Source of the DNA: Acidobacteriota bacterium
GTDB taxonomy: Bacteria; Acidobacteriota; Polarisedimenticolia; J045
Direction of reading: 5' to 3'
Assembly: GCA_027021395.1 (NCBI GenBank)
Contig: JALUUK010000541.1
Span: forward strand, 1 to 35,188
DNA: 35,188 bases
Below the pieces are notes generated by a model that had not been told where the DNA came from, made no database searches, and worked only from the letters and a program-made list of their open reading frames with translations. Position numbers and translations under genes: made by a program. Shown here piece by piece: positions 4,263 to 28,054 of the stretch; within the stretch, counting starts at the first letter, position 1; the number at the start of each line of letters is the position of its first letter.

Positions 4263-4424
4263 GAGCGCTTTCTCCCGCCCCCAAGGGCCTTCTCGCCTTC
4301 GGGGAATCCCCGATTCGCAACATTCCTCCTTCTCTCGGCCTTGACCAGCATCGTGCCGGCCACCAATTTTGACCACGGAGGTCCCCGGTGCGGCGATTCG
4401 CACCGGCGGATGAGGACTGTGCGC

Positions 4425-6155
4425 ATGACCGATCGCATCGGAGAACTGCTGCTCACCGAAGGCCTGATCTCTGAGGAGTCGCTTCAAGAGGCCCTCGAGC
4501 GTCAGCGCGCCGAGGGGGGCAAGCTGGGCTATCACCTCGTGCATCTCGGCTCGGTCAGCGAGGAAGACCTAGTCCACCTGCTTTCCGAGCAGTATGGGAT
4601 TCCTGCCATCGATCTTCGCAGTCTCTACCCCCACATCGATCGCGTACTGCTCGAAACCATTCCCGAAGATCTCGCCACGCGCTATCACGTTTTTCCCGTT
4701 CATCGCACCGGCAACGTCTTGACCTTGGCGATGTCCGATCCAACCAACGTGGTCGCGCTCGACGACATCCGCTTCAGGACGGGCTGTGAAGTGGAACCGG
4801 TTCTCGCCAGCGAGTTCGCCATCCAGGAGGGGATCGAGCATTCCTACGAGGAAAAACGACTCGATCTCGCCGAGTTTGAAGACGAACTGACGGATACGGC
4901 GTCGGTCGATGAAGACGAAGACCTCGAAGTGTTGGCGGACGAAGACGAGATCGACGCCTCCAACCTCGAAGCCCTCTCGGCGGATGCCCCCGTGGTGCGC
5001 ATCGTCAACCGGATCCTGGTCGATGCCATCCGCAAGGGAACGTCGGATATTCACATCGAGACCTACGAAAAGGATTTCCGGGTTCGTCTGAGAATCGACG
5101 GCGTGCTCTACGAATACATGAACCCGCCGATGAAGCTGAGGGACGCCATCATTTCGCGTCTCAAGATCATGGCCAAGTTGGATATCGCTGAACGCAGACT
5201 ACCGCAAGACGGGCGGATCAAGATCAAGATGCGCCTGGACGACCGGACACGCGAGATGGACTACCGTGTGTCCAGCGTGCCGACGCTGCACGGCGAGAAA
5301 GTCGTACTTCGTTTGCTCGACAAAGAGAACCTCTGTCTCGATCTGACGAAACTGGGTTTCGAAGCCGGTACGCTGCAGGCCATTGAAGAGAATATCTCGA
5401 AGCCTTGGGGCATGGTTCTGGTGACCGGGCCCACCGGCTCGGGGAAGACGAACACTCTCTACTCTTCCATCTCGAAGGTCAACTCGCCGGAAACGAACAT
5501 CATGACGGCCGAAGATCCTGTGGAGTTCAATCTTCACGGCATCAATCAGGTGCAGACCAAGGAGGCTATCGGACTGACCTTCGCAGAGGCGCTTCGTTCG
5601 TTCTTACGCCAAGATCCGGACATCATCCTGATCGGAGAGATTCGTGATTTCGAGACCGCGGAGATCGCGATCAAGGCCGCATTGACCGGCCACCTCGTGC
5701 TATCGACCCTGCATACGAATGATGCTCCGTCCACGATCAACCGCCTGATGAACATGGGAATCGAGCCTTTTCTCGTCTCGTCGTCCGTGAACCTGATATG
5801 TGCGCAGCGCCTGGTGCGCAGGGTCTGCACGGAGTGCAAGGAAGAGGTCGAAATATCACCGAAGGCCCTGGTGGACATCGGCTATTCGCCCGAAGAAGCC
5901 GAGACCGTCAAGCCCATGAAGGGGCGCGGTTGTGCCAACTGCAACAGCAGCGGCTACAAGGGACGCGTCGGGCTCTTCGAAGTGATGGAAATATCCGAGG
6001 AAATCCGCGAAATGATTCTCACGGGCTGCTCGACGCTCGAACTCAAGAGGCAAGCGGTGGAAGAGGGCATGATCACCCTGCGCCGAGCCGGGCTTTTGAA
6101 GATTCAAGGCGGTCACACCACGATCGAAGAGGTGGTTCGAGAGACGGTTTTCTAA
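4425..6155 (+). CDS. pilB: Type IV pilus extension ATPase PilB (GspE/PilB family, N-terminal MshEN-like domain)
   Basis: Walker A GPTGSGKTNTLYS, RQDPDIILIGEIRD, CTEC/CANC zinc motif, N-terminal RIGELLLTEGLISEESLQEAL. ATG at 4425 chosen over the 4341 ORF start. Confidence 0.93.
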   Translation: MTDRIGELLLTEGLISEESLQEALERQRAEGGKLGYHLVHLGSVSEEDLVHLLSEQYGIPAIDLRSLYPHIDRVLLETIPEDLATRYHVFPVHRTGNVLTLAMSDPTNVVALDDIRFRTGCEVEPVLASEFAIQEGIEHSYEEKRLDLAEFEDELTDTASVDEDEDLEVLADEDEIDASNLEALSADAPVVRIVNRILVDAIRKGTSDIHIETYEKDFRVRLRIDGVLYEYMNPPMKLRDAIISRLKIMAKLDIAERRLPQDGRIKIKMRLDDRTREMDYRVSSVPTLHGEKVVLRLLDKENLCLDLTKLGFEAGTLQAIEENISKPWGMVLVTGPTGSGKTNTLYSSISKVNSPETNIMTAEDPVEFNLHGINQVQTKEAIGLTFAEALRSFLRQDPDIILIGEIRDFETAEIAIKAALTGHLVLSTLHTNDAPSTINRLMNMGIEPFLVSSSVNLICAQRLVRRVCTECKEEVEISPKALVDIGYSPEEAETVKPMKGRGCANCNSSGYKGRVGLFEVMEISEEIREMILTGCSTLELKRQAVEEGMITLRRAGLLKIQGGHTTIEEVVRETVF

Positions 6156-6179
6156 GCGGGGACCGAACCCCGGGGAGCG

Positions 6180-7298
6180 ATGCCTGTGTCCGTGACACTG
6201 CACCAACTGCTCAAGGCCATGATCGAGTGTGGAGGAAGCGACCTTCACATCACGACAAACTCTTCGCCGCAGGTGCGGATGGATGGGATGTTGGTGCCCC
6301 TACAGAGTCCGCCGCTGACCGCGCCGGAGACCAAGGCATTGGTCTATTCCGCCCTGACCGATCAGCAGAAGCATCGCTTCGAAGAAGACATGGAACTCGA
6401 CTTTTCGTTCGGGATCAAGGGGCTCGCTCGCTTTCGAGCAAACGTCTTTTCGCAGCGCGGAGCGGTCGCCGCAGCCTTCCGGACCATCCCTTGGGAAATC
6501 AAGTCCTTCGCCGATCTCGGGCTGCCGGATGTGATTGCTTCGCTCGCCGATAGGCCACGTGGATTGGTCTTGGTGACGGGGCCCACAGGATCCGGAAAGA
6601 GCACCACGCTCGCTGCCATGCTCGACAAGATCAACAACGAGAGACAGGCTCATATCGTTACGATCGAGGATCCCATCGAATATCTGCATTCGCACAAGCG
6701 CTGCATCGTCAACCAGCGGGAACTCAACTCCGATACGCGCTCATTTCCGAACGCACTGCGCTCGGTCCTGCGGCAGGATCCCGATGTGGTTCTGATCGGT
6801 GAAATGCGCGACCTCGAGACGATCGAGTGTGCGCTGCGCGTTGCGGAGACGGGACATCTGACCTTTGCCACGTTGCATACGAATTCGGCGTCTCAGACCA
6901 TCAACCGCATCATCGACGTGTTTCCCGCCAATCAGCAGGGGCAGGTGCGGGCCCAACTTTCGTTGGTGCTCGAGGGAATCTTGTGTCAGACGCTCCTTCC
7001 GCGTGCATCGGGCAAGGGACGTGCGCTCGCGATGGAGATCCTCGTTCCCAATTCCGCGATTCGGAATCTGATTCGTGAGGACAAGGTGCATCAGATCTAT
7101 TCGATGATGCAGACCGGTCAGGCGAAGTTCGGAATGCAGACGTTCAATCAATCCCTCGCCACGCTTTACTTCCGGCGTCAGATTGCGCTGCAGACCGCCC
7201 TGTCGATTTCGAGCCTCCCGGATGAGCTTCAAGAAATGATCAATCGTGGCGCAGGCACGTTGGGCGGAGGCATGACGTCTCCGGCCGGTAGGCGCTGA
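6180..7298 (+). CDS. pilT: Type IV pilus retraction ATPase PilT
   Basis: GPTGSGKSTTLAAMLDKIN, RQDPDVVLIGEMRD, AIRNLIREDKVHQIYSMMQTG (PilT-specific C-terminal motif). Confidence 0.95.
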   Translation: MPVSVTLHQLLKAMIECGGSDLHITTNSSPQVRMDGMLVPLQSPPLTAPETKALVYSALTDQQKHRFEEDMELDFSFGIKGLARFRANVFSQRGAVAAAFRTIPWEIKSFADLGLPDVIASLADRPRGLVLVTGPTGSGKSTTLAAMLDKINNERQAHIVTIEDPIEYLHSHKRCIVNQRELNSDTRSFPNALRSVLRQDPDVVLIGEMRDLETIECALRVAETGHLTFATLHTNSASQTINRIIDVFPANQQGQVRAQLSLVLEGILCQTLLPRASGKGRALAMEILVPNSAIRNLIREDKVHQIYSMMQTGQAKFGMQTFNQSLATLYFRRQIALQTALSISSLPDELQEMINRGAGTLGGGMTSPAGRR

Positions 7299-7314
7299 GG
7301 CCACAGGAGAGACC

Positions 7315-8517
7315 ATGAGTACGTTTGCTTGGAAAGGGCGTTCGCGCAGCGGAGAGAGCCGTGACGGCACACTCGAGGCCAGCAATCGGGAAGAGGCGGT
7401 AGCGGCGCTGCGTCGCCAAGGCATCGTCGTTTCCTCGATTTCCGAGAAGGGGAAGGAAATTGCGCTTCCCAAACTCGGCGGGAGCGTGAGCAAGAAGGAA
7501 ATCGCCGTCTTTACACGTCAGTTCTCGGTGATGATCGACGCCGGTCTGCCGTTGGTGCAGTGCTTGGAGATCCTGTCTTCACAGGCCACCAACCGCGTCA
7601 TGCAGCAGGTCCTCGTCGATGTGCGCACGAGTGTCGAGGGTGGTTCCACCCTCGCGGATGCGATGCGCAAACATCCGAAGATCTTCGACGACCTCTACTG
7701 CAACATGGTGGCCGCGGGGGAGTCGGGAGGAATTCTCGATACGATCTTGCAGCGGCTTTCGCTCTACATCGAAAAGATCGTCAAACTGCGCTCGGCGATA
7801 CGCGGGGCGATGATCTACCCCGTGGCGGTGATGGGTATCGCGGTGGTCGTGGTGTGGATCATCTTGACATGGGTGATCCCGGTCTTCGGCGACCTCTTCA
7901 CCGGCCTTGGTGCTGAATTGCCGCTGCCGACGCGGATCACCATCGGGCTTTCGCACTTTCTGCAACGCTGGTGGTGGCTGATCTTGATGGGTGTCGTCGG
8001 GTCGGTCATTGGACTATTCCAATACCACAAGACTCAAAAAGGCAAGCGGGTGATCGACCGGCTTCTGCTGAAGATTCCGGTGATGGGCATCTTGCTGAAG
8101 AAGGTCGCCGTTGCGCGTTTCTGCCGCACGCTGGCTACACTGACGTCCTCGGGCGTGCCGATTCTCGACGGACTCGACATCACGGCGCGGACATCAGGCA
8201 ACGCCATCGTCGAAGATGCAATCATCAACGTGCGCAAAGAGGTCGAGCAGGGACGAACCATCTCTGAGCCGTTGGGCGAGACGGGTGTCTTTCCATCGAT
8301 GGTCGTTCAGATGATGGCAGTCGGTGAACAAACCGGTGCTCTCGATACGATGCTGTCCAAGATCGCCGACTTCTATGAAGACGAGGTCGATGAGGCGACA
8401 CAGAACCTTCTGGCGATGCTCGAGCCGGTGATGATCTCTTTCCTCGGTGTCATCATCGGTGGAATCGTCATTTCGATGTATCTACCGATGTTCAGCCTGA
8501 TCTCCAAGATCGGTTAG
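7315..8517 (+). CDS. pilC: Type IV pilus inner membrane platform protein PilC
   Basis: Two GspF domains: FTRQFSVMIDAGLPLVQCLEIL and FCRTLATLTSSGVPILDGLDI; 400 aa, C-terminal TM. Confidence 0.94.
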   Translation: MSTFAWKGRSRSGESRDGTLEASNREEAVAALRRQGIVVSSISEKGKEIALPKLGGSVSKKEIAVFTRQFSVMIDAGLPLVQCLEILSSQATNRVMQQVLVDVRTSVEGGSTLADAMRKHPKIFDDLYCNMVAAGESGGILDTILQRLSLYIEKIVKLRSAIRGAMIYPVAVMGIAVVVVWIILTWVIPVFGDLFTGLGAELPLPTRITIGLSHFLQRWWWLILMGVVGSVIGLFQYHKTQKGKRVIDRLLLKIPVMGILLKKVAVARFCRTLATLTSSGVPILDGLDITARTSGNAIVEDAIINVRKEVEQGRTISEPLGETGVFPSMVVQMMAVGEQTGALDTMLSKIADFYEDEVDEATQNLLAMLEPVMISFLGVIIGGIVISMYLPMFSLISKIG

Positions 8518-8540
8518 AGCCGGTTGCTCGAGACGAGGCG

Positions 8541-10181
8541 ATGAACCGAACCCGGCGGCAGCTCAGGCGGCTCAACGCCGCTCGCGCCGTCGCGGTGAGC
8601 ACGCTGTTACTCGTGGCGCTGGCGACCGAAATCGTCTTCAAGCCACGGGAATCCCTAGGAGGAATCCACCTCCTCTCCGCATTCGCATTCGGTACGGTCT
8701 TGCTCTACGCCCTGCTGGATCGCTGGATGGGAGAGACGAAGCTGCTTGCGGCCTTGCAGGTGGCCGGCGATGTGCTCTTGGTTTCGTTTTTCGTCTTCGA
8801 GACGGGTGGACCACTTTCGCCGCTTTCTTTTCTCTACGCCGTTCCGGTGATGGTCGCCGCCGCCATGTTGGGCCTCGTCGGGGGCTTGATGGCGGCGGGC
8901 GGGGCGTGGTTCATCTACGGAAGTCTCTTGGTTCATCTGGCGTGGTATGGGCCGCCTGGAGAAGTTCAACTCGGAGGCCTGCTCTACGGAGCGGTTTCGC
9001 ACTTGGTCGGCTTCTTGACGCTCGGCGCTCTCGGGGGCCTGCTCGCCGACAGATTGGCTAGAGCCGATCGCGAACTCGAAGAACGGCAAGTCGATCTCGA
9101 GGCCTTGCGTGCGCTTCACGCAGATATCGTAGAGAGTATTTCAACAGGTCTGATGACCACGGATCCGCAGGGCATCGTCACTTTCGTCAATCAGGCCGGC
9201 CGGGCGATCCTTCACGAGCGGAATGAATCGGCCATCGGCGGTTCCGCCGCACGGCTGTTCGGCCTTCCCGAGGATTTTCTCGAGCAGGCCGAAGACCACC
9301 TGCAAAGCGGCCGACGCTATCGCTTCGAGCGGCAGTGGAGTCGGCCCGCGGACGGGGAAGATCTCTTTCTCGGCTTTGCCGTTTCCAAGCTCGCCGGGCC
9401 TTCCGGCCGGGCCGACGGCTGGCTGATCGTCTTCCAAGACCTGACCGAGATCGCTTCTCTCGAGGAACAGGTGCGCACACGGGAACGCATGGCGGCGCTT
9501 GGAGAGATGGCCGCGGGTATCGCCCATGAGCTGCGCAATCCGCTCGCGGCCGTCACGGGTTGCGTGCAAGTCCTCCAGCAGCGCACACAGCGACTCGCGG
9601 GCGCAGACGGTGATGACGAGGGGGGCGATTTGCTGCAGATCGTCGTGCGAGAGTCTTCGCGTCTCGATCGAACGATTCGCGATTTCTTGATGTTCGCCCG
9701 TCCCGGAGAGTTCAAGACCCGGCTATGCGATTTGGCGCAATTGATGGAAGAACTCGCTCGCATGCTACGAAAAAGTCCGGATTTCAGCTCGGCGCATTCG
9801 GTCGTCGTCGAGACCGGGCCACGGGCCACGCAAGCTCCGGTCGATCCCGACCGCATCCGTCAGGTCTTTTGGAATCTCGCCTCGAATGCGCTCAAAGCCA
9901 TGCCCGAGGGTGGAAAACTAACCATTCACGTTGGGGGATTCGGAGGAGACCAAGTACTGGTCGCCTTCCGAGACGAAGGGTGTGGAATGGATCAAGAGGC
10001 GGTCAAACGCTATTTCCAGCCGTTTCGAGGTGATTTCAAGACTGGATCCGGGCTTGGAGCCGCCATCGTTTACCGTATCATCGAGGAGCACGGCGGCCGG
10101 GTGCAGGTCGTATCCCACCCGGGCCGTGGAACGGAAATCCGACTGCTTTTGCCGGGAGTTCGGGAGTATGCTCATGCCTGA
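8541..10181 (+). CDS. pilS: Membrane sensor histidine kinase, PilS-like (TM + PAS + HisKA/HATPase)
   Basis: N-terminal multi-TM; PAS region IVESISTGLMTTDPQGIVTFVNQAG; H-box GEMAAGIAHELRNPLAAV; HATPase NLASNALKAM and GSGLGAAIV; adjacent to pilR. Confidence 0.88.
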   Translation: MNRTRRQLRRLNAARAVAVSTLLLVALATEIVFKPRESLGGIHLLSAFAFGTVLLYALLDRWMGETKLLAALQVAGDVLLVSFFVFETGGPLSPLSFLYAVPVMVAAAMLGLVGGLMAAGGAWFIYGSLLVHLAWYGPPGEVQLGGLLYGAVSHLVGFLTLGALGGLLADRLARADRELEERQVDLEALRALHADIVESISTGLMTTDPQGIVTFVNQAGRAILHERNESAIGGSAARLFGLPEDFLEQAEDHLQSGRRYRFERQWSRPADGEDLFLGFAVSKLAGPSGRADGWLIVFQDLTEIASLEEQVRTRERMAALGEMAAGIAHELRNPLAAVTGCVQVLQQRTQRLAGADGDDEGGDLLQIVVRESSRLDRTIRDFLMFARPGEFKTRLCDLAQLMEELARMLRKSPDFSSAHSVVVETGPRATQAPVDPDRIRQVFWNLASNALKAMPEGGKLTIHVGGFGGDQVLVAFRDEGCGMDQEAVKRYFQPFRGDFKTGSGLGAAIVYRIIEEHGGRVQVVSHPGRGTEIRLLLPGVREYAHA

Positions 10182-10219
10182 GCTCGTCGGAACCGGAGAA
10201 TGAGAGGAGTGGTACTTCA

Positions 10220-11632
10220 GTGGCCTTGATACTCGTCGTCGACGATGAAGCGGGGATCCGCGAGATGTTGCGAGCCGTGCTCGAGGAGGACGGCCATCGC
10301 GTCCAAGTCGCAGAACATGCCGAGTCCGCCCTAGCTCGGGTGCTCGACGAGGGAGCCGATCTGCTCATCACCGACATCTCCATGCCGGGAATGAGTGGGG
10401 TGGAACTGCTAGAGGCCATCAAGAGGCAGGGACGCGAAATCCCGGCCATCGTGATCACGGCCTTCGGATCGAAAGAGTCTGCCATCGAGGCCATGCGTCA
10501 GGGAGCAGTGAACTATCTAGAAAAGCCCTTCGATGTCGAAGAAATGCGCATGCATGTTCGCCGGGCGCTCGGCCAACAGCGTTTGACCGACGAGAACCGG
10601 CGTCTGCGCGCGACGCTTCAGGTCGAAGCCGATATCATCGGGCGTTCTTCCGCCATTCGGGACGTCAAGAGCCTCGTCGAGCGCATTGCTCCGACCGATA
10701 GCACGGTCTTGATCACGGGTGAATCCGGCACCGGCAAGGAAGTCGTCGCTCGCGCGATTCACGCAGCATCGAACCGCGGCGATCAACCCTTCGTTTCGGT
10801 CAACTGCGGAGCCATTCCCGACCACCTGCTCGAGTCGGAACTCTTCGGTGCCATCCGAGGGGCCTACACGGGGGCGGACAAGGATCGCCGCGGCCTCGTG
10901 CAGGCGGCGGACGGGGGCACGCTCTTTCTCGATGAGATCGGCGACATGCCGCACGAAATGCAGGTCAAGCTGCTGCGCGTGCTGCAGGAAAGGTGCATCC
11001 GCCGCGTGGGCGGAACCGAAGAAGTCCCCGTCGACGTACGCATTCTGACGGCGACCCATCAGGACCTGGAAACGCTGGTGCGAGACAAGGTCTTTCGGGA
11101 AGATCTCTACTACAGAATCAACGTGATTCGCGTCGCCGTTCCGGCTCTTCGAGAGCGAAGAGACGATATTCCGGAGTTCGTCTACCGCTTCGCCGAAAAG
11201 CACGCCGAAAGCATGGGAAGGCGGGTCACGGGTTTCGAGCCCGGGTTCATCGATGCGCTCTGCTCGCACTCTTGGCCCGGGAACGTCAGAGAACTCGAGA
11301 ACGTCGTGGAAAGGGCCGTGGCGCTCTCGACGGGGGAGAGGCTCGAGAAGTCCTCTCTCGATCCGATGCTCTTCTGCGGAGATCGGCGCGAGCGAAGCGG
11401 CTCTCAGCAAGCGACTCTCGACGATATCGGCGACATCGAAGAGCACCTCGAGTCGGAAAGAAAGCGCTTCATGGAAGAAGCGCTACTCGCCTGTGGGTCG
11501 GTGCAAACGAAGGCCGCAGAGCGACTCGGCATGACGACGCGCTCGTTTCGTTACTTCGCTCGCAAGTACGGCTTGCTTCGTTCCGCCGGACAGGCAGAAG
11601 AGGAAGTCCACGCAACGTCGCACGAGGATTGA
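10220..11632 (+). CDS. pilR: Sigma-54-dependent response regulator, PilR-like
   Basis: Receiver [17 protein letters not shown]+ [21 protein letters not shown] loop; C-terminal Fis-type HTH; GTG start. Confidence 0.92.
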
Positions 11633-11950: not shown

Positions 11951-12421
11951 ATGCGACGGATCAATCGGAAGGAAAGTGGTTTCACACTGATCGAGCTGCT
12001 CATCGTGGTAGCGATCATCGGCATCATCGCGGCCATCGCGATTCCGAACCTGCTGAACGCAATCGATCGCGGTAAGCAGAAGCGCACCATGGCGGATTGC
12101 CGCTCGATCGGTACATCGGTCGAAGCCTACTCCGTGGACAACAACTTCTATCCCAACCGGGGGAGCCTCAGTTCCTTGGTGACCGTCAACGGCAACGTCG
12201 ATCAGGACATCGAGCCGGTGTACATCAAGAAGGCTCCGGAGCAGGACGGCTGGGGAACCGATTTCTACTACGGTTCCGACCGCAATGACTACACCGTGCG
12301 TTCCTACGGTAAGGATGGAACGTCTACGACGGCTACCGGTGGAAAGACCACTGACTTCAACGCGGACATCATCTTCTCCGATGGTTCCTTCTTGCAGTGG
12401 CCTGAAGGTCAGCAGCAGTAA
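11951..12421 (+). CDS. pilA: Type IV pilin / GspG-like major pilin, paralogue 1
   Basis: Prepilin motif KESG|FTLIELLIVVAIIGIIAAIAIPNLLNAI; C-terminal DGWGTDFYYGSDRNDYTVRSYGKDG; strong SD GGAGGTGA. Confidence 0.93.
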   Translation: MRRINRKESGFTLIELLIVVAIIGIIAAIAIPNLLNAIDRGKQKRTMADCRSIGTSVEAYSVDNNFYPNRGSLSSLVTVNGNVDQDIEPVYIKKAPEQDGWGTDFYYGSDRNDYTVRSYGKDGTSTTATGGKTTDFNADIIFSDGSFLQWPEGQQQ

Positions 12422-12516: not shown

Positions 12517-12981
12517 ATGAAGACGAATCTGCAGAAGACGGTTGCTCGAGGTGATGGTGGCTTCACGCTGATCGAACTGCTCGTGGTCGTGGCCATCATC
12601 GGAATCATCTCGGCGGCAGCGGTCACCAACATGCAGAGCGCATTGGATAAATCCCGCCAGCGAAAAACCTTGGCGAACATGCGTAACCTATCGACCGCGA
12701 TTTCGGCCTACAACACCGACTACAGCGAGTTGCCGGGCAATGGCTTGACGGCCTCCGAACTCGAGGACCTGCTCGAAGGCAATGTCTTCAACACCGTCGA
12801 TGCTACGGATGCCTGGGGCTACGATCTGGCCTACAGCAGCAACGCGGGAAGCTACACCGTCGAGAGCTACGCGCGTGACGGTGCCGACGGTCCAGCGAAT
12901 ATCACACCGGCCACGAAGACCGATTTCGACAACGACATGGTCTTGGTGGACGGGCGTTTTCTAAATAGCCCGGAGATCTGA
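12517..12981 (+). CDS. Type IV pilin / GspG-like pilin, paralogue 2 (Pro22 replaced by Thr)
   Basis: DGG|FTLIELLVVVAIIGIISAAAVTNMQSAL; C-terminal DAWGYDLAYSSNAGSYTVESYARDGADG. Confidence 0.92.
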   Translation: MKTNLQKTVARGDGGFTLIELLVVVAIIGIISAAAVTNMQSALDKSRQRKTLANMRNLSTAISAYNTDYSELPGNGLTASELEDLLEGNVFNTVDATDAWGYDLAYSSNAGSYTVESYARDGADGPANITPATKTDFDNDMVLVDGRFLNSPEI

Positions 12982-13330: not shown

Positions 13331-13386
13331 TGCGTAGGTAAGAAGGTCGAGCAACACACATTATCTTGCATGGAGGTATCGATACG

Positions 13387-13872
13387 ATGAGCGGCCACGC
13401 TGATTCTTCCAACCGAAAGAACCGTTCCCAAGCCGGGTTCACCCTGATCGAGATGCTCATCGTCGTGGCGATCATCGCCATGATTGCAGCGATCGCCGTA
13501 CCGCAGATCATGACGGCGATGCAGAAAGGCCGCGTGGCGACCACGCAGCAGGCGATGAGATCGCTCGCTCAGGCTCTGGCCGAATACAGCCTGAAACACG
13601 CCGAGTTTCCCAAGATTGGAGATACCGCAAGCCTCGTCCCCGTTGGAGACGGCTTGATCAACGGGCTGATCGCCGAGTCTTCCTACGACAAGCTCAACGC
13701 CGAAGATTCCTGGGGACGGCCCATCTACTACGGCTCGGACGGGATCAACTTCACCTTGCGATCCTATTCGCAAAACGGCGAACTCGACCCGGCGACGGGA
13801 GAGGAGAACCCCAGCGACCCCAATGCCGACATCATCTGCATCAACGGGAATTTTCAGCAAGTTCCCAAGTGA
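13387..13872 (+). CDS. Type IV pilin / GspG-like pilin, paralogue 3
   Basis: MSGHADSSNRKNRSQAG|FTLIEMLIVVAIIAMIAAIAVPQIMTAM; C-terminal DSWGRPIYYGSDGINFTLRSYSQNG; SD GGAGGT. Confidence 0.92.
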   Translation: MSGHADSSNRKNRSQAGFTLIEMLIVVAIIAMIAAIAVPQIMTAMQKGRVATTQQAMRSLAQALAEYSLKHAEFPKIGDTASLVPVGDGLINGLIAESSYDKLNAEDSWGRPIYYGSDGINFTLRSYSQNGELDPATGEENPSDPNADIICINGNFQQVPK

Positions 13873-13968: not shown

Positions 13969-15453
13969 TTGACTCGACCGAGCAGACGACACTTTCGTTG
14001 GGTACCGGTACTCACCACCGCCGCCGTGGGCGGCGGTGTGGGTGCGATTCATTTCGGATTCATTCCCGACGACCTCTACATCTACCTGACCATGACGCGC
14101 AACGTTCTCGCCGGCGACGGCTGGGGTTTTGCGCCGGGCGAGGCCGTCAACGTGGCCTCATCGCCGGCGTGGTTCGCATGGCTTCTTTTCCTAGGCAAGT
14201 GCTTCGGTGTGGAAACGTTGGCTCCTCGCCTGTCGTCGGGCCTCTTCACGATGGTGGGGATCGGCCTCGCTGCAGGGTTCGCACAGCGCCTCGCCGGGCG
14301 CAGTGCCGCCGGATGGTTGGCGGGCTCGCTCTTGGCGTTTGACGTTTGGATCGGGCGGTGGTGCTGGAGCGGCATGGAGACCGGGGCGACGGTCGCGCTC
14401 GTCGTTGCCTTCGTTTGGCTGCGATACGAGGCTCGACCCGGGCGGGGAGCGGACCGAATCGCTTCTTTGCTCTTGGGCGTCGGGCCGCTGCTACGGCCTG
14501 AACTCGTGCTCTTGGCGGTCGTCTCGCTCAGCGTCGACACCCTGAGGTTCGTCATCGAGCGGGATCGCGCGCGTCTCGCGCGTCTCGCCTGGGATCTCGG
14601 CTCGTTGGTGCTGGTGGGAGGGATCTGGCTGGCCGTCTCTGCGAGCATTTGGGGTTCGCCGATTCCGGCCACGATGGTTGCCAAAGGGTCGCTCGGTGCT
14701 TCGCATCTTTCCGCTTGGCGGGCCGGCCTTAGGGTCTTGGCCGTGATCGGTTCTTCTCAAGGAGCGATCGCCATACTCGCCGTCCTCCTGGGCTTGGGCT
14801 TTTTGCGCAAGGGGACGCGCCGCAGCGACGTGGCCGCGATCATCTTGGGCATGACGGCGTTGCTGGTGTTGGTTTACGCACTGCGCCACGTGACGGTCTA
14901 TACGCGCTATGCTCTGCCGGTGAGCATCCTGCTGACGGTTCTCGGTGCGGCGGCTTTGCTCGACTCGCGTGCGGCGAGTCGCCTGCGGGGGGTGTGCGCA
15001 TGCCTCGTCTTGTCGGTGAGCGCAGCATGGAATCTGGGATTCGGAGCGCAAGTGGTATGGCCCGGAACCAAGGCTTACGCACGTTCGATGAATGAGATGG
15101 TATTGCCGCTCGTCGATGAGTTGCGGGAGAAGTCGAAACCCGGTGATGTCATCGCCGTGCCGAATATCGGAGCCTTCGGGTTTTTCTCCAAGAGACGCAT
15201 TCTCGATCTCAATGGACTGGCGACTCCCGACTTGGTTTCATACAAGCGCGAGGGGCGCTTGCGGGAATACCTCGAGCAGCATCCGCCGGATTGGTTGGTG
15301 GAGATCGAACCCTCGCCCCGACGGTGGGAGGCCGATCCGGGGCGTTTGATTCTTCGCCGCATCGGGGTGCATCGCTTTGACGGGATGTTCGTCACGCGAA
15401 AGGAACCGATGTACTACACGGTCTACAGAGTCGAGGGCCTGCGCCGACCATGA
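13969..15453 (+). CDS. Multi-TM glycosyltransferase, GT39/ArnT-like (GT-C fold)
   Basis: FIPDDLYIYLTMTRNVLAGDGWGFAPGEAVNVASSPAW (GT-C DD motif in first periplasmic loop), many TM segments, C-terminal IGAFGFFSKRRILDLNGL. TTG start uncertain. Confidence 0.7.
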   Translation: MTRPSRRHFRWVPVLTTAAVGGGVGAIHFGFIPDDLYIYLTMTRNVLAGDGWGFAPGEAVNVASSPAWFAWLLFLGKCFGVETLAPRLSSGLFTMVGIGLAAGFAQRLAGRSAAGWLAGSLLAFDVWIGRWCWSGMETGATVALVVAFVWLRYEARPGRGADRIASLLLGVGPLLRPELVLLAVVSLSVDTLRFVIERDRARLARLAWDLGSLVLVGGIWLAVSASIWGSPIPATMVAKGSLGASHLSAWRAGLRVLAVIGSSQGAIAILAVLLGLGFLRKGTRRSDVAAIILGMTALLVLVYALRHVTVYTRYALPVSILLTVLGAAALLDSRAASRLRGVCACLVLSVSAAWNLGFGAQVVWPGTKAYARSMNEMVLPLVDELREKSKPGDVIAVPNIGAFGFFSKRRILDLNGLATPDLVSYKREGRLREYLEQHPPDWLVEIEPSPRRWEADPGRLILRRIGVHRFDGMFVTRKEPMYYTVYRVEGLRRP

Positions 15454-18400
15454 AAGAAGGAAACTCTTCCGCGACGGCTTCGGCTCTGACGCTCGGCGCC
15501 GCGCTGGCTTTGGCCATGCTGGCTCCGCCCGAAGTCTACGAAGAGTCGGGAGCCTCCATCGCGCTCTTGCTGGCCCTCGGTTTTCTCGTAAGCCGCCCTG
15601 CGACGCGTGCCGCCGTTTGGATGGTCGGTGCCGGGCTTTTCGCGGCAAACCTCTTCGTTTCGCTCGCGCCGGGCCGAACGGTGTCATGGCTTCCGTATTT
15701 CGGCATCGTCTTTGCCGCTTTCGTGCTCGCTCGCTCGCTCGGAGCAGCAAGACGCGAGAGCCTGCATTTGCTGATGGCGGCTTGCGGTGCGGCGCTCGGC
15801 TTCTACGCGCTTGCGCAACGTTTTTTTCTGCTCGAACGCGATGCTCAGATCGCACGGGAATCCGGGGCTATGCCCCTGTTGCTGGCCCGCTTGGAGACGA
15901 GCCGACCCTTTGCGACTCACATGGTTCCCGCTTCGCTCGCCGGCGTCTTGGTGCTCGCGGCTTGCGCACTGCTGATCTGGGCTGAGAAGCGCCGCGCGCG
16001 CGACACGATGGCGTGGCGGAAGGAAAGGTGGTTGGTGGCCGCCTTGGCCTTGCCCATCGCAGCGGGTTTCTTGGTCACCGGCTCGCTGGGAGGGTGGGCG
16101 GGGTTGGCCGCAGCCGTGCTGGTCGTGCTGCGGCCGCGTCTCGGTGCACGTTCTCGGCGAGGCGTGCTCGCCGGTCTCGTTGGGCTCGTGTTGGTAGCGG
16201 CCGTCCTGATCGCGCTTCGGCCTGTTTCGGTCTTTGATTTCCAAGATCCGGACAATCCGCTGGTTCTGCGCGCAGGCAACTGGCGCGCGGCCGTGCTGAC
16301 GGCGGCGGAGGGCGGCCCGCTCGGCACCGGACTCGGCAGCTTCGGCTCGCTCTACCCCTCGGTGCGTCGTCTCGAAGACAACGAGACGCACTTCGTTCAC
16401 AACTCCTGGCTGCAACTGACGGTGGAGGGCGGGTTGCCTTTCGGCCTGCTCTTGATCTGGGGCGCAGTGATCCTGTGGCGGCGCGTCTCTTCCGAAAACG
16501 GATGGCAAGCATGCCTCGCCTTGGCGGCTCCGGTGGCCTTTGCCGTTCACAACCTCGTGGACTTTACGGCCTATCTTCCAGGAGTCGCGCTGCCGGCCGC
16601 GGTTTTGACGGGCTTTGCTTTTTCGACTTCGGCACGGGATCGCTCGCAGACGCTTGGCACTCCACTCGGGCTGCGCCTAGCGATCGTCGCAATGCTGATT
16701 CTATTCGCGGCGTTTTTTGCGGGCGAGTTTCTTGCGAAATCCGAGATTCGCCGGTTCAGCACCGAGATCAGCGAGATCGATGACGACGAGGTCGTGCGCC
16801 GCATGTCGGCGGCGAGCTTCGGCGCGCGATGGAATCCGCGCACGATGACTCACCTCGTGCGCGCAACGATGGGGCGTGAAGCGGGGCCCGGGCGGCCGCA
16901 GCCGCGCACGCGGGCATGGGTGGATCGTCTCACGGCCATGGACCCCCTCTCTCCAGTGCCTTGGGAACTTCTTGGAGATCTCGCGTTGATCGAAGGGCGG
17001 CCGGCGGAAGCGTGGCTGCACTACCGTCACGCTCTCGCTCGCTACCCGGTCGACGAGGAGGTGGCCCAAAAAATCGCGGGATTGCAAGAGGCGCTCGAGC
17101 GACGGGGTTTTCTAGAGGAAGCGGCTGAGAACTACGAAGCGCAGCCGATGGCGCGGGATTTCGTTTGGGAGAGTTGGGACGACCTGCTACTGATCATTGC
17201 CGTGGCGATGATCTCCGCACTTTTTTGGCAGCGACGCCGGTCGACGGGGGCGCCGGCCGAGGCCTTGGGGCTGGCGTTGCTTCTCCTGCTCGCACCGTGG
17301 GGGGAGGGGGGAGCGCTGCCCGGAGTTCGGTTCGGCTTGGCGCTGGTGATCACCGTCACGCTCGCGCTCTTCCTATGGCGCGATCGCAAGGATCACACCG
17401 CCCTTGCCGTTCCTCGGCCCGTGATCTCGCTGATCGGCGCCGTTTTGGTCGTGGCGGCGATGGCGGCGTTCTTTTCTCCCGCTCCGGCCGATGCGCGCGA
17501 TGGCTTTTCGACGCTTTTTCTGGCGCTTGCGGCGATGGCTCTATCGGCCGCTCTTGGGGCGAGGCACGCGGGTTGGCTGGAGATCATCGTTGGAGTCACC
17601 GGGCTCGCGGCCTCTTTGGCGGGTCTGCTTTGGTTGCTTCAAATCATGGCCCCTTGGCTGGGCATCGACCTTTCGAACGCGCCCGCACCCTTTTTCGTGC
17701 CGGCCGGCGGGCGACCGGTCGGCGACTTTTTGCATCCCGGACATCTTTCGACCTTTATCGTGGCCTGTGCGTTCGTGTTGCTCGCGAGCGGGATGGCGAC
17801 GCCGGTGCGCCGCTTTCGGCTGGCGCACGCCGCGCTGCTCTTGCTCTTGGGCACGGCGGGAATCGGAGCCATGGGCTTTCGCCGAGGCACCTTCGTGGCG
17901 CTGATCGCCGGAGCCTTGGCACTGGCGGCGATTTCCCGCTCGCGTCGCGTGAGGCGGGCAGCCTTGGCGGTGATCGCCGTCGGAGTCATGGTCGGTTTGC
18001 CGCTTCTGGCCTGGAGATTCTGGGGAGGGGAAGCGCACTCCGGGACGCGATTCGCCATCTGGCAGGCCTGCCTCGAAGCGAGCTGGATGCGACCTCTGCA
18101 AGGTTTCGGCCCCGGCGCCTTCGACGCCGTCTCGACGCACTTTTCCCTTTCGCACCCGCAGGAGTGGGTGCGCTACGGACGGGTTTTTCGCGGCCCTCAT
18201 TCCGACGCCATTCAAGCGATCTTGGCATTGGGCTGGCCCGGCGGGTTCTTGGCCATCGGAGCCTTCGCCTACTGCTGGTTGCGTGCGGGAAGGTACGCGA
18301 GGCAGGGGCATGCCGTGGTGGCCGGTCTGTTGGCCGCAGTGGCGGCGACCGGCGCGCACGCGCTCTTTGACGACCTCTACTCGGAGCGTCCGGCGTTGGC

Positions 18401-19145
18401 GCTTTTTACCGCCGTTTGGCTCGGGGCGGCCGTTGGCAGAGCGCTTCACGAACGGGTCGGGCGAAGCGTTTCGGCCCCTGTGCGGCGAGGCCTGCTCGCA
18501 TCCGCTGTGATTCTTTTGATCTGGGCCGAGGGCATGCCTTGGGCTGCGGAACGTCTCGATCGGGAAGCCATGCCGAAAGCGGCGACCCGCGTCGACTCTC
18601 TACGCTCCAAGTTCTGGTTTCACCGCGCTCGCCGCGATGCGGGAGGGATGCTCACTCCGGTCGATCGGGTGGGAACGAGCATCGCGCGGGGCGTGTGGCT
18701 GGAATCCGGGACGGCGAGCGCGCATGCCGAAAGGGCGCAATGGCTCGAATCCCTCTGCCGCGGGCCTTTGCCCGAGCGGGGGATCTGTCGGGCAGCGGCC
18801 GATGCATGGAGCGCGCAACTCGCACTGCGGCCGCATGATGCTCTCGCGCGCTTTCGTCGCGCGCTCTTGTGGAAGCATCTCGGGCAGCCCGCCTCGCTCG
18901 AGGCGGATCTCGCCCTGCTGATCGCCTGGGAGCCCCATTTCCTGCCGGCGCGACTGGAGATGATCTCCCTGATGGTCGAGCAGCGCCGGAGCGCCTCCGC
19001 CCGTTCGGAATTGGCCGAATTCGACGAGACCGTGCTTTCCCTGCGGGGGTGGCGGCCATCGAATCGCCTCGAGCAAAGTTTTCTTGCCGTTTCGACAGCG
19101 CGAATCGACCGTTTGCGCGCCGAAGTCGGGCGCTCGTCGCCGTAG
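15450..19145 (+). CDS. Tandem-duplicated O-antigen ligase/polymerase-like (Wzy_C/WaaL/PglL) membrane protein with two TPR-like segments
   Basis: 1231-aa single ORF. Module 1 loop GNWRAAVLTAAEGGPLGTGLGSFGS...ETHFVHNSWLQLTVEGGLPFG; module 2 loop RFAIWQACLEASWMRPLQGFGPGAFDA...RGPHSDAIQAILALGWPGGF. Helical repeats follow each module. ATGA overlap with the previous gene. Confidence 0.75.
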   Translation: MKEGNSSATASALTLGAALALAMLAPPEVYEESGASIALLLALGFLVSRPATRAAVWMVGAGLFAANLFVSLAPGRTVSWLPYFGIVFAAFVLARSLGAARRESLHLLMAACGAALGFYALAQRFFLLERDAQIARESGAMPLLLARLETSRPFATHMVPASLAGVLVLAACALLIWAEKRRARDTMAWRKERWLVAALALPIAAGFLVTGSLGGWAGLAAAVLVVLRPRLGARSRRGVLAGLVGLVLVAAVLIALRPVSVFDFQDPDNPLVLRAGNWRAAVLTAAEGGPLGTGLGSFGSLYPSVRRLEDNETHFVHNSWLQLTVEGGLPFGLLLIWGAVILWRRVSSENGWQACLALAAPVAFAVHNLVDFTAYLPGVALPAAVLTGFAFSTSARDRSQTLGTPLGLRLAIVAMLILFAAFFAGEFLAKSEIRRFSTEISEIDDDEVVRRMSAASFGARWNPRTMTHLVRATMGREAGPGRPQPRTRAWVDRLTAMDPLSPVPWELLGDLALIEGRPAEAWLHYRHALARYPVDEEVAQKIAGLQEALERRGFLEEAAENYEAQPMARDFVWESWDDLLLIIAVAMISALFWQRRRSTGAPAEALGLALLLLLAPWGEGGALPGVRFGLALVITVTLALFLWRDRKDHTALAVPRPVISLIGAVLVVAAMAAFFSPAPADARDGFSTLFLALAAMALSAALGARHAGWLEIIVGVTGLAASLAGLLWLLQIMAPWLGIDLSNAPAPFFVPAGGRPVGDFLHPGHLSTFIVACAFVLLASGMATPVRRFRLAHAALLLLLGTAGIGAMGFRRGTFVALIAGALALAAISRSRRVRRAALAVIAVGVMVGLPLLAWRFWGGEAHSGTRFAIWQACLEASWMRPLQGFGPGAFDAVSTHFSLSHPQEWVRYGRVFRGPHSDAIQAILALGWPGGFLAIGAFAYCWLRAGRYARQGHAVVAGLLAAVAATGAHALFDDLYSERPALALFTAVWLGAAVGRALHERVGRSVSAPVRRGLLASAVILLIWAEGMPWAAERLDREAMPKAATRVDSLRSKFWFHRARRDAGGMLTPVDRVGTSIARGVWLESGTASAHAERAQWLESLCRGPLPERGICRAAADAWSAQLALRPHDALARFRRALLWKHLGQPASLEADLALLIAWEPHFLPARLEMISLMVEQRRSASARSELAEFDETVLSLRGWRPSNRLEQSFLAVSTARIDRLRAEVGRSSP

Positions 19146-22212: not shown

Positions 22213-22815
22213 GTGAGCCGGAAGAAAGCAATGACGGATCATCCCATCCATGAGCTCATCGCCGCGCGGTGGAGTCCATACAGCTTCGAGGAGCGTCCCG
22301 TTCGCCCCTCGGATCTCGCATCGATCTTCGAAGCGGCCCGATGGTCGGCGTCGTCGTACAACGAGCAGCCTTGGAGCTTCATCGTAGCGACCGCGGACGA
22401 GCAAGAAGAATTCGAGCGCATGCTCTCTTGTCTCGGTGAGTGGAATCAGGGATGGGCGAAGGCTGCGCCCGTGCTCGTTCTCGCGGTGACCAACCAGCGT
22501 TTTGCAAAGAACGGCAAAGAAAACCGCGCAGCCGTCTACGACTTGGGGCAGGCTGTAGCCAATCTGGTGATCGAAGCGACGGCTCGCGGCTTGTCCGTTC
22601 ATCAAATGGCCGGAATCTTGCCCGACAAGGCTCGAGAGATCTATCAGATTCCGGAACACGCCGATGTGTGGACGGCGCTGGCGATAGGTTACCGTGGAGA
22701 GGCTGCCGCACTTCCGGATGCGCTGAAGGAAAAAGATCTCGCGGCGAGAGAACGCAAACCCCTGGCTCAATTCGTATTTTCCGGCCGTTGGGGTCATTCC
22801 GACTACGACGGGTGA
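22213..22815 (+). CDS. Nitroreductase family protein
   Basis: HPIHELIAARWSPYSFEERPV, EAARWSASSYNEQPWSFIVAT, GLSVHQMAGI: NTR fold; GTG start with GGAGG. Confidence 0.88.
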   Translation: MSRKKAMTDHPIHELIAARWSPYSFEERPVRPSDLASIFEAARWSASSYNEQPWSFIVATADEQEEFERMLSCLGEWNQGWAKAAPVLVLAVTNQRFAKNGKENRAAVYDLGQAVANLVIEATARGLSVHQMAGILPDKAREIYQIPEHADVWTALAIGYRGEAAALPDALKEKDLAARERKPLAQFVFSGRWGHSDYDG

Positions 22816-22929: not shown

Positions 22930-24291
22930 ATGATCTTGATCTTGGGCGGCGGTCTGGCCGGTATGTCGACGGCTTTCCACCTCGCGCGCGAGCAGCCGGG
23001 GCTGGAAAGGCTCATCTTGGAGAAAAACGCGCGCGGGGGCGGCTTGGCCCGATCGCGCCGGGTGGGGGAGTTCATCTTCGACTACACCGGCCACTATTTG
23101 CATCTCAGAGATCCCGAGACGACGGCGCTGGTGCGAGACTTGCTCGGCGAGAATCTCTTCGAAGCTGAACGACGTTCAACGATCCACATGCACGGCACGG
23201 AAGTGGCTTTTCCTTTTCAAGCCCACCTCCACGGCCTGCCGAGAGAAGTGGTTGCGCGCTGCTTGCTGGATTTTTTCGAGGCATCTCGGCATGAGATGCC
23301 GGAAAACGCCGCCGAGGGTTCCTTCGCAAGCTGGGCACGGCTGACTTTCGGTCATGCGATCGCCGAAGAGTTCATGATTCCCTACAACGAGAAGCTCTTC
23401 GGCGTGTCTGCCGACGAGATCACCGCGGAGTGGGTGGCTTGGTCGGTGCCGCGGCCGGATCTCGAGCAGGTCGTGCGCGGCGCGCTGGGGATGAGCAACG
23501 AGGGGTTGGGTTACAACGCGCGTTTCTCGTATCCCCGGCAAGGCGGGATCGCCGCCCTGCCGCGCGCGCTCCAAGAACGTGTCATCGCCGACATGCGCTT
23601 CGCATCCGAAGTTCAGGCGATCGACCTGAAGCAGAAGAGCGTGACCCTCAGCGACGGCGAGGTGATTTCTTGGGACTTCCTGGTTTCGACCCTGCCGCTA
23701 CCGCTCTTTTGTCGCATGATTTCGGCCATGCCCAACGAAGGTGACCTCGATCGCTTGCGTGCCGCCGCCGGAACCTTGCGAGCAAGCGCGACCTACGATG
23801 TGGCGCTTGGAATCGATCGGGAGAGCTTGGCCGGGGGCACGCATTGGATCTATTTTCCCGAGGCGAAGTATTCCTTCTACCGAGTCGGTTTTCCGAGCAA
23901 TGTTTGTTCTGCTCTCGCGCCCGCCGGATGCTCGACCGCGTCGGTCGAGATCACCGAAAAGGCGGGGCAGGTCGTCTCCGAAGAAGAACTCATCGAGCAG
24001 GCGCACCGCGGGCTGATCGAGGCGGGTATCCTCGATGAGCGCGATCGCATCGTCGCGCACGACGTCGCGCGGATCGATCCGGCCTATGTGCTCTACGACG
24101 AGAATCACGCGAAGGCGACCGGAGAGATTCAGCGACTTTTCGAAGACTTGGATCTTCACTCGATCGGACGGTATGGCGCATGGACCTACAGCTTCATGGA
24201 ACGAGCGTTGATGGACGGACGCGAGACGGCGGCTCGGCTGCTCGAGCGGGCGGGATCCGCGTCTGCCACATCATCACCAAGCTCGAGCTAG
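22930..24291 (+). CDS. FAD-dependent oxidoreductase, UDP-galactopyranose mutase/protoporphyrinogen-oxidase-like
   Basis: MILILGGGLAGMSTAFHLAREQ...LILEKNARGGGLARSRRVGEFIFDYTGHYLHL Rossmann FAD motif; GRYGAWTYSFMERALMDGRETA C-terminal motif. Confidence 0.85.
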   Translation: MILILGGGLAGMSTAFHLAREQPGLERLILEKNARGGGLARSRRVGEFIFDYTGHYLHLRDPETTALVRDLLGENLFEAERRSTIHMHGTEVAFPFQAHLHGLPREVVARCLLDFFEASRHEMPENAAEGSFASWARLTFGHAIAEEFMIPYNEKLFGVSADEITAEWVAWSVPRPDLEQVVRGALGMSNEGLGYNARFSYPRQGGIAALPRALQERVIADMRFASEVQAIDLKQKSVTLSDGEVISWDFLVSTLPLPLFCRMISAMPNEGDLDRLRAAAGTLRASATYDVALGIDRESLAGGTHWIYFPEAKYSFYRVGFPSNVCSALAPAGCSTASVEITEKAGQVVSEEELIEQAHRGLIEAGILDERDRIVAHDVARIDPAYVLYDENHAKATGEIQRLFEDLDLHSIGRYGAWTYSFMERALMDGRETAARLLERAGSASATSSPSSS

Positions 24292-25418
24292 GCGGAGCCC
24301 AACAGAACACGCTCTACACCGTCGCTCATCTCGATCGCGAGCGCTTCGCCCCGTTCTTGATTGCCGGCCCCGGCGGCGTACTCGATGACGAGGCGCGCGA
24401 GATCGAAGGTCTAGGCTTTGAAACGTGTTCGTCGCTCGTACGTCCGATTTCGCCGCGAGCCGACCTCGAGGCTCTGCGAGATCTCACGCGGCGCTTGCGT
24501 CGACTCGCGCCGCATGTCGTGCATACGCATTCCTCCAAAGCCGGTATTCTCGGTCGTTGGGCCGCACGGATCGCCGGAGTTCCGGTGGTCATTCACACGG
24601 TGCACGGCTGGGGATTCCACGCGCATCAGGCGCCCTGGAAGCGCTGGACCTTCATCGCGCTCGAACGGGCCGTACGGCGCCATACCACACGGCTGGTCGC
24701 GGTCTCCAAGGCCAATGTCGAGGCCGGAGTCGATCGTCGCATCGCGCGGCGTGAAGAATTCGAAGTGATCTATTCCGGAGTGGCGCTCGAGCCTTACCGG
24801 CGCGCCGCCGGAAACGGCATGCTGCGCCGAGAACTCGGTCTCGCCCCGGAAACGCCGCTTGCCGGGATGGTGGCTTGTCTCAAGCCGCAGAAGGCCCCGG
24901 TGGACTTCGTCGAGGTGGCCGCGAGCGTATCGAAGGATCGACCCGATGCGCACTTCGTCTTGGCCGGAGATGGGGAACTCAGGGAAGAGGTTGAACGGGC
25001 CGTCATCGCGCACGGCTTGCAGGGCCGTTTCCACCTCCTCGGTTGGCGTCGCGATGTGCCCGAAGTCATCGGCGATCTCGACGTGTTGGTCTTGACTTCG
25101 CTGCACGAAGGTTTGCCGCGTGTCTTTCCCGAGGCGATGGCTGCAGGACGGCCCATCGTGGCCACGGCGGTCGATGGCGGTCCGGAGGCCGTTCATCACG
25201 GGCGCAACGGTTTCTTGCATCCGGTTCGCGACGTCGAGGGCATGGCGCGCAGCCTGTCGACTTTGCTCTCAGATGCGGATCTGCGACGCCGCATGGGCGA
25301 GGAGGGCCGCCCGCGCGCCGAAGCTTGGGATATCGATCTGATGGTTCGCAAGCAGGAAGAACTCTACCTCTCAGAGATAGCGAAGTGCGTTGGACTTGAA
25401 GAGGCACCAAATCGTTGA
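24180..25418 (+). CDS. Glycosyltransferase family 4 (GT-B)
   Basis: RVCHIITKLELGGAQQNTLYTVAHL; VVIHTVHGWGF; FPEAMAAGRPIVATAVDGGPEAV. The only in-frame ATG start (24180) gives a 112-nt overlap with the flavoprotein. Confidence 0.9.
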   Translation: MDLQLHGTSVDGRTRDGGSAARAGGIRVCHIITKLELGGAQQNTLYTVAHLDRERFAPFLIAGPGGVLDDEAREIEGLGFETCSSLVRPISPRADLEALRDLTRRLRRLAPHVVHTHSSKAGILGRWAARIAGVPVVIHTVHGWGFHAHQAPWKRWTFIALERAVRRHTTRLVAVSKANVEAGVDRRIARREEFEVIYSGVALEPYRRAAGNGMLRRELGLAPETPLAGMVACLKPQKAPVDFVEVAASVSKDRPDAHFVLAGDGELREEVERAVIAHGLQGRFHLLGWRRDVPEVIGDLDVLVLTSLHEGLPRVFPEAMAAGRPIVATAVDGGPEAVHHGRNGFLHPVRDVEGMARSLSTLLSDADLRRRMGEEGRPRAEAWDIDLMVRKQEELYLSEIAKCVGLEEAPNR

Positions 25419-26465
25419 GCCGGGTTCGAGGCCCATGCTCGTGATCGTACGAGAGGTGACCTCGACGATCATCGGCAAGCCGACATCGATCTCGACGAAG
25501 ACCTGACCTTCATGAGGGACGAGGCGGCGAATCGTTCCGGGCCACTGGTTTTGAACGGAAATTCCGCAGACATGCTGCGCGGAAAGCGCGATATCTTGGG
25601 GACGCAAGGCGAGCGAGCGCTCCGTTCCGAGCGGGTCGGCAACGAGCGGTGCGTTGACGACGGGCGGCGTCGTGCCCGCTTCGCCCAAGACGACCTGCCA
25701 GCGGGTGATGCCCTGTTCACGACGGTGTTCCACGGCGCGGCAGCGCAACAGGCTGACCAAGCCGAGAGATTGCATCGAACGGAGTGCTCGCTGCTGCATC
25801 ATCAGATCGAGGTAGCGACCGTGCGCCTCGAGGCGTCCGCTTTCGATGATCAGCATCATTTCGCCGATCTGCAGAAACTCGCCGATTTCATGTGTGACAT
25901 AGAGGATCGGTAAGCCGGAGCGGCCGGCGATCTTGCGCAAGAGGTTCAGTGCGCGGCGCTTGAGTCTCGGATCGAGCGCCGAGAGCGGTTCGTCGAGCAG
26001 CAGCGCCCGGGGGTGGGCGAGCAGGGAGCGCGCCAAGGCGGTGCGTTGCGCTTCGCCGCCGGAGAGCGAACGGGGTCGGCGGGAAAGCAGCCCGGCGATT
26101 TCGAGTTCTTCGACGACCTCGTCGAAGGAGACGATCTGCCGCCCTCGCTGCGCATGCTTTCCGGCATAGTCGAGATTGGCGCGAACGCTCATGTGCGGGA
26201 AGAGCCGTGCTCGCTGAAAGACCAAGGCCACGGCGCGCCGGTGCGCGGGCAGGTTTCGTCGCGCTTTGCAATCGAAGAGAATTCTTCCGTCAAGCGCAAT
26301 GCGGCCGGAATCCGGCGTGGCGAGGCCGGCGAGCAGATGCAGCAAGGTGGATTTCCCGGCGCCCGAGTGCCCGAGAATCCCCCATACGCCCGGAGAGGCG
26401 GAGGCCTCGATATCTAGGGCGAAGTCGCCGCGGCGCCACCTCACGTCGAATGCGAGGCCCGTCAT
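25371..26465 (-). CDS. modC: Molybdate ABC transporter ATP-binding protein
   Basis: GHSGAGKSTLLHLLAGL, LSGGEAQRTALARSLLAHPRALLLDEPLSALD, C-terminal TOBE-like region; follows modB with ATGA overlap. Confidence 0.9.
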   Translation of the reverse strand: MTGLAFDVRWRRGDFALDIEASASPGVWGILGHSGAGKSTLLHLLAGLATPDSGRIALDGRILFDCKARRNLPAHRRAVALVFQRARLFPHMSVRANLDYAGKHAQRGRQIVSFDEVVEELEIAGLLSRRPRSLSGGEAQRTALARSLLAHPRALLLDEPLSALDPRLKRRALNLLRKIAGRSGLPILYVTHEIGEFLQIGEMMLIIESGRLEAHGRYLDLMMQQRALRSMQSLGLVSLLRCRAVEHRREQGITRWQVVLGEAGTTPPVVNAPLVADPLGTERSLALRPQDIALSAQHVCGISVQNQWPGTIRRLVPHEGQVFVEIDVGLPMIVEVTSRTITSMGLEPGSTIWCLFKSNALRYL

Positions 26466-27157
26466 GGTTCGTTCCACCGCCGCGCGCGCCGGGCGAGCCA
26501 CTCCGAGGTCGCGAGCGAGGCGAAAGAGAGGACGAGCGAGAGCACGGCCAAGCGCAAGGCCGCGCCCTCGGCGCCGGGAGTTTGCGCGGTGGAGAAGATG
26601 GCAAGCGGCAGCGTGCGCGTTTCGCCCTGAATATTGCCGGCGAGGATGATCGTCGCACCGAATTCACCGAGGCTGCGGGCGAAGGCCAGCATCAGACCGG
26701 TGATGATTCCCGGGGCGGCCAAAGGCAGAGTGATCGACCACCATCGCCGCAGCGGGCCTGCGCCGAGCAGGGCGGCGGCCTCTTCCAATCCTTCGTCGGA
26801 CGATTCCATGGAAACGCGGACGGCGCGCACGAGCAGGGGGAAGCCCATGACGGCGGAGGCCATCACGGCACCGCGCCGGGTGAAGGCGATGTCGAGGCCC
26901 ATGGCATCCAGAATCGGGGAGATCGGTCCGGAGCGACCGAGCAGCAGCAAGAGCATGTATCCCACGACGACCGGAGGGAGTACGAGCGGCAGATGCACGA
27001 GCAGATCGACCACGCCCTTACCGAAGAAACGCCGGCGGGCGAGCAGCCAGCCGAGATAGATCCCGGGCAGGGCTGTGACCGCTACGGCACCGAGCGCCAC
27101 CTGGATCGAGAGCTTCAGCGCTTCCCACTCCGCCGCGTTGGGGGCGTCCCAGATCAT
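26462..27157 (-). CDS. modB: Molybdate ABC transporter permease
   Basis: SIQVALGAVAVTALPGIYLGWLLAR, LPLVLPPVVVGYMLLLLLG, ITLPLAAPGIITGLMLAFARSLGEFGATIILAG (EAA loop). Confidence 0.92.
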   Translation of the reverse strand: MIWDAPNAAEWEALKLSIQVALGAVAVTALPGIYLGWLLARRRFFGKGVVDLLVHLPLVLPPVVVGYMLLLLLGRSGPISPILDAMGLDIAFTRRGAVMASAVMGFPLLVRAVRVSMESSDEGLEEAAALLGAGPLRRWWSITLPLAAPGIITGLMLAFARSLGEFGATIILAGNIQGETRTLPLAIFSTAQTPGAEGAALRLAVLSLVLSFASLATSEWLARRARRWNEP

Positions 27158-27927: not shown

Positions 27928-28054
27928 GATCTTCTCCGGCCGGGCGGTGAGCGTGCCGGGCGGGTGGCGACAGATCATATCGCGGAGCCGGGGCGTTGCG
28001 AGTGGCATAGCTCGCATATCCGGGAATCGCCGGTACGATTTGCATGGCCTCGAC

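Follow-up and report, generated by a model that had tools for sequence, protein, structure and literature searches.

Most accounts of O-antigen ligases and of pilin oligosaccharyltransferases treat them as single-module proteins, and Wzy-dependent pathways need both polymerase and ligase activities. WaaL, the LPS O-antigen ligase, has lipid A-core as its acceptor. In the ligase WaaL (CAZy GT121; PDB 7TPG), Arg-191 and Arg-265 are assigned to the diphosphate and His-313 to the acceptor; polymerases of the same clan have Asp or Glu where ligases have His (PMC10920833). Genes for the O-oligosaccharyltransferase PglL adjoin pilin genes in 21 of 31 cases (PMC3643930). A TPR-bearing glycosyltransferase that acts on a surface-filament protein is known in FlmG, the flagellin glycosyltransferase of a cytoplasmic O-glycosylation pathway (PMC7591256). 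In Geobacter, the glycan genes of the xap cluster (GSU1498-1508) come directly after pilin genes; work on this cluster has concerned the export of exopolysaccharide and involves an ABC transporter.

Here, we describe a protein from an uncultured member of the Acidobacteriota in which two Wzy_C modules share a single chain. Like WaaL, it has Wzy_C and a periplasmic loop with Arg and His; unlike WaaL, it carries two modules plus TPR domains, is encoded in a pilus locus, and has no equivalent of Arg-191 in module 1. With the PglL/TfpO-type enzymes it shares Wzy_C and a gene beside pilins, yet neither it nor its relatives have PglL_A, whereas PglL is single-module and keeps Arg-224, which is absent from module 1. 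The likeness to FlmG lies in a TPR-bearing glycosyltransferase in a surface-filament setting, and that to the Geobacter cluster in position. Separate tandem Wzy_C/TPR gene pairs in other Acidobacteriota pilus loci have the same modules, order and neighbours, and differ in being two genes, in having no linker helix and in keeping the NPN, SRG and Glu motifs of module 2 intact. We estimate at about one in two the probability of a fused two-subunit glycan ligase that belongs to a type IV pilus locus and probably glycosylates pilin.

The gene occupies positions 15450–19145 on the plus strand of the window, the whole 35,188-nucleotide stretch analysed, and translates as one stop-free frame of 1231 aa, just as the original prediction had it. 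Two Pfam Wzy_C matches (PF04932) lie in this frame, at 41.4 bits (16044–16454) and 39.4 bits (17847–18254), both above the curated cut-off of 31.7 bits; in a Pfam scan of the aligned relatives, Wzy_C was found at E≤0.01 in 33/33 module-1 rows and 30/31 module-2 rows. The membrane domain of module 1 (residues 1–430, 15450–16740) is followed by a presumably periplasmic TPR-like domain (about residues 445–560, 16782–17129), an added transmembrane linker helix (residues 574–596, 17169–17237), the membrane domain of module 2 (residues 605–1035, 17262–18554) and a second TPR-like helical domain (18573–19049), all on the plus strand. WaaL 7TPG is the best sequence-profile match for both membrane domains, at E 4.2e-10 for module 1 and E 9.2e-14 for module 2. 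The two halves have homologous profiles (HHalign probability 99.9%, E 4.9e-36), although BLASTP of one half against the other gave no significant pairwise similarity (E 6.7).

Predicted structure agrees with this domain layout. The full-length AlphaFold model, based on 11 sequences, has a pLDDT of 76 and a pTM of 0.55; its parts are usable but their relative placement is not. It contains two membrane bundles with a helical-repeat domain after each, and its top PDB match is again WaaL 7TPG (E 5.8e-4, TM-score 0.63 by target length, with the matching half not specified). Modelled alone, module 1 reaches a pLDDT of 92.8 and a pTM of 0.92. Its repeat matches solved TPRs in Foldseek (1na0, TMt 0.72), and the top matches of the module are TPR-type and other helical-repeat proteins. 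WaaL 7TPG is not among the first 50 Foldseek matches of module 1, and the kinship of this module with WaaL therefore rests on sequence profiles. For the second repeat domain, the AlphaFold helices are joined by Pfam TPR matches in most module-2 relatives (TPR_19 in 24/31 module-2 alignment rows). Pfam, AlphaFold and Foldseek thus uphold the earlier description of two Wzy_C-type modules, each with a TPR-like segment behind it.

How widespread is the fused form? In a sample of 12 genomes from the window's family, 11 carry the gene. Both modules lie in a single open frame in all eight family loci that are unbroken by contig ends, which come from several genera and include a one-contig genome; each frame has two Wzy_C matches, both above the cut-off in 7/8. 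Partial family loci that cover the joint are fused too, and those relatives with a fused protein that carry names are Acidobacteriota metagenome-assembled genomes. The twelfth genome (G005, 100% complete) has no orthologue of the fused gene. It also has no close PilR orthologue (best match 44% identical), which suggests that the entire pilus locus is missing from it, as though lost. In other families of the class in which both modules were found, the modules occupy two different frames in adjacent genes of the same order and strand, many of them overlapping by 1–17 nt, often by 4 nt as ATGA or GTGA. Certain families elsewhere in the phylum have gene pairs of this kind too. Among the genomes searched, the fusion is confined to one family of uncultured Acidobacteriota. 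A search with the single protein across genome contigs and viral contigs found no relative, and an open-literature search, whose coverage leaves out most subscription journals, turned up neither a double Wzy_C protein nor such a gene pair.

Individual separate loci need a brief comment. At L053, the partner directly behind module 1 is module-2-like according to a profile search; a hydrolase frame wrongly picked as the partner stands outside the residue counts yet is a row of alignment A3. At L063 and L060, one ligase gene contains stop codons or frame breaks, possibly sequencing errors.

The joint itself differs between the two forms. In separate genes, module 1 ends a median of 23 residues past its last conserved TPR proline, and the GEGG motif of module 2 has 19 residues before it; in fused proteins, the same stretch is 84 residues long, about 42 more than the sum of these. 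In 11/11 fused proteins, the extra residues include a hydrophobic segment that reads SWDDLLLIIAVAMISALFW in the window and usually has an Arg after it, and AlphaFold renders the segment as a helix. If module 1 ends in a periplasmic TPR domain and module 2 begins in the cytoplasm, then mere removal of the stop codon would turn module 2 over in the membrane, and one more helix would restore its original orientation. The need to avoid such a flip would explain the gain of the helix, which we infer lets module 2 enter the membrane as it did before.

The history of the two halves can be read from a membrane-core tree, made by a quick method with SH-aLRT support only and an arbitrary root. All module-1 rows, fused or not, are separated from all module-2 rows and share their side of the tree with other Wzy_C proteins. 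In each half, the fused rows make up a single clade (SH-aLRT 100). The split and the single fused clade per half indicate that two old, different genes were joined once. Phylogeny of the halves, proposed earlier as a check, thus points to a single fusion of two anciently diverged genes and away from duplicated halves. Alignment A4, in which separate module-1 and module-2 rows were mixed with fused ones, laid module 2 on module 1 and was left unused. That the protein arose by fusion of a conserved ligase gene pair is, in our judgement, nearly certain; the original prediction saw the single two-module protein, but this origin was not visible to it.

Placing the residues of both modules by alignment to WaaL 7TPG, and taking their roles from PMC10920833, we find that the modules are unequal. 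Module 2 has equivalents of all three WaaL residues (Arg812 for Arg-191, Arg867 for Arg-265, His917 for His-313) and of all three PglL residues (R224, R298, H349). Module 1 has Arg274 and His317, corresponding to Arg-265 and His-313, and two of the three PglL residues. Its Arg-191 position is never Arg: it is Leu213 in the window, and Ala, Ile, Leu, Val, Phe, Tyr, Met or Gly elsewhere. Module 1 also has two further invariant Arg, R152 and R257, and R257, R274 and H317 are present in every row counted. The acceptor-activating His is found in 34/34 counted rows of module 1 (codon 16398–16400, plus strand) and 32/33 of module 2 (codon 18198–18200, plus strand), at the very positions first predicted.

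Asymmetry between the modules had been anticipated, and it exists, but not where it was located. The original argument was that module 2 has Leu where Glu usually follows the His. A Glu is indeed missing, but the window has Ala926, not Leu, and the absence is limited to the fused family, in which Glu nine residues past the His occurs in 0/9 proteins as against 24/24 separate relatives. WaaL 7TPG likewise has no Glu there, but Thr, which makes the argument weak; the Glu difference arose late, within the fused family. The asymmetry that holds class-wide is the missing Arg-191 equivalent of module 1. Two other motifs of module 2 have changed alongside the Glu. N(P)N has become H(P)G in 9/9 fused proteins, while separate genes keep the first Asn in 22/24 and the second in 21/24, and the Gly after Arg812, present in 23/24 separate genes, is Ala in 8/9 fused ones. 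Wzy_C scores of module 2 are about 21–45 bits in the fused family versus about 64–81 bits in the separate genes listed.

A type IV pilus and glycan locus, as opposed to an LPS-core locus, fills most of the window. The gene order is secretin, accC, pilB, pilT, pilC, pilS, pilR, three pilins, a 494-aa ORF and the fusion gene. The pilB-pilT-pilC-pilS-pilR-like genes (4341–11632, plus strand) were assigned by Pfam and keep the same order in relatives; the three type IV pilin-like genes (11951–12421, 12517–12981 and 13366–13872, plus strand) match N_methyl and T2SSG in Pfam. The fusion gene had been placed directly downstream of these pilins; in fact, the 494-aa membrane glycosyltransferase-like ORF (13969–15453, plus strand) intervenes and overlaps it by 4 nt. 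This ORF has only a weak match to LA_3751-type glycosyltransferases (NCBIfam NF047440, below cut-off). It sits between the pilins and the fusion gene in five family loci and was undetected in others, which makes it look like an optional insertion. After the fusion gene come a DUF6263 gene, a GT2 glycosyltransferase and a WecA-like lipid-phosphate glycosyltransferase (PF00535 and PF00953; 20217–22165, plus strand; conserved beside the fusion in the family), a nitroreductase gene (22250–22815), and an FAD oxidoreductase and a GT1 glycosyltransferase (22930–25418, plus strand; Pfam; conserved family neighbours), with a PilD-type peptidase further on. Linkage to pilins extends to separate pairs: among 20 aligned separate loci with enough upstream sequence, 19 have a pilin no more than about 650 nt upstream. 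The pair at L068 (7269–10945), with no pilin in the 7 kb upstream, is the one clear exception.

Taken together with what is known of the family, the residues mark both modules as ligase-type enzymes of lipid-diphosphate-linked glycans. Conserved gene order, gene overlap and fusion suggest that the two ligases normally work as a pair. Module 2 has a complete ligase set of two Arg and one His; in module 1, its own invariant Arg (R152 and R257) would serve, or this module may have a mainly acceptor-binding or structural role. That its catalytic-type residues are invariant argues for activity. By analogy with PglL, position would make pilin the acceptor, since the window and nearly all relatives have pilins upstream. 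A bolder version is that an obligate two-subunit pilus glycan ligase with two active sites, one of its subunits being without the usual first diphosphate-binding Arg, is widespread in Acidobacteriota, and that one family has made of it a single two-active-site protein in which three motifs of module 2, and with them probably its specificity, have changed; this is possible, though we hold it only tentatively. An arrangement of one ligase per pilin was also considered, but in several families both ligase genes are retained beside a single detected pilin, and the idea was rejected.

Could the double frame be spurious? The window comes from a fragmented metagenome bin of 818 contigs, with a completeness of 93.8% and a contamination of 6.9%, in which an assembly artefact, read-through or recent internal duplication might be suspected. 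The same fusion recurs in eight genomes, the one-contig genome among them, and family-wide conservation of the double frame rules out an artefact. Internal tandem duplication is excluded by the failure of BLASTP to align the halves and by the place of other Wzy_C proteins in the tree, which keeps the modules apart. We consider the chance of any such origin negligible. A more substantial proposal, that of the original prediction, was a polymerase plus a ligase in one chain. Two unlike modules, one of them non-canonical, could fit a pathway that requires both activities. Yet both modules keep His and neither has the Asp or Glu expected at this position of a GT-C1 polymerase or SEDS protein, and since polymerases of the clan are set apart by just this residue (PMC10920833), the proposal is not borne out and we regard it as quite improbable. 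Somewhat less unlikely is that module 2 alone is catalytic, with module 1 reduced to a degenerate partner whose task is to position either the acceptor or the lipid donor. In favor of this, module 1 is without an Arg-191 equivalent in every row and does not have the NxN motif of module 2; on the other hand, its R257, R274 and H317 are kept more strictly than some motifs of module 2.

The remaining question concerns the acceptor. The modules may ligate a surface polysaccharide to lipid or to another non-pilin acceptor, with a glycan cluster merely housed in a pilus locus. PglL_A (PF15864), the published marker of pilin ligases, matched neither the window protein nor any row, and the protein is accordingly not a member of PglL by this marker. 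WecA-like, glycosyltransferase and ABC genes lie downstream, and in Geobacter, a cluster for an anchoring polysaccharide occupies a similar place directly downstream of pilin genes, so that location does not prove a pilin acceptor. Against this, adjacency to pilins is tight even where the downstream glycan genes differ between families, and no Wzx, Wza or Wzz-like gene was recognised among the window proteins scanned. We think a non-pilin acceptor rather unlikely, on a par with catalysis by module 2 alone, and favor a fused two-subunit ligase that probably glycosylates pilin.

A conserved pair that later fused, and in doing so gained a helix in keeping with the topology, argues strongly, if indirectly, that two such ligases can act as a unit. 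It points to a route of pilus modification in a little-studied phylum, and it gives a defined protein with which to ask why two ligase modules are needed. Finally, we note some minor features of the window. Of the three pilin-like genes, only the third is without a clear orthologue in the other loci examined. On the minus strand, positions 25371–28017 encode an ABC ATPase with TOBE, a membrane-protein-like ORF and a periplasmic-binding-protein-like ORF, which resemble a molybdate transporter and interrupt the cluster. Further on, at 32174–34818, two ORFs with hydrophobic N-termini and no Pfam match could be minor pilin-like (PilW/PilX-like) proteins.
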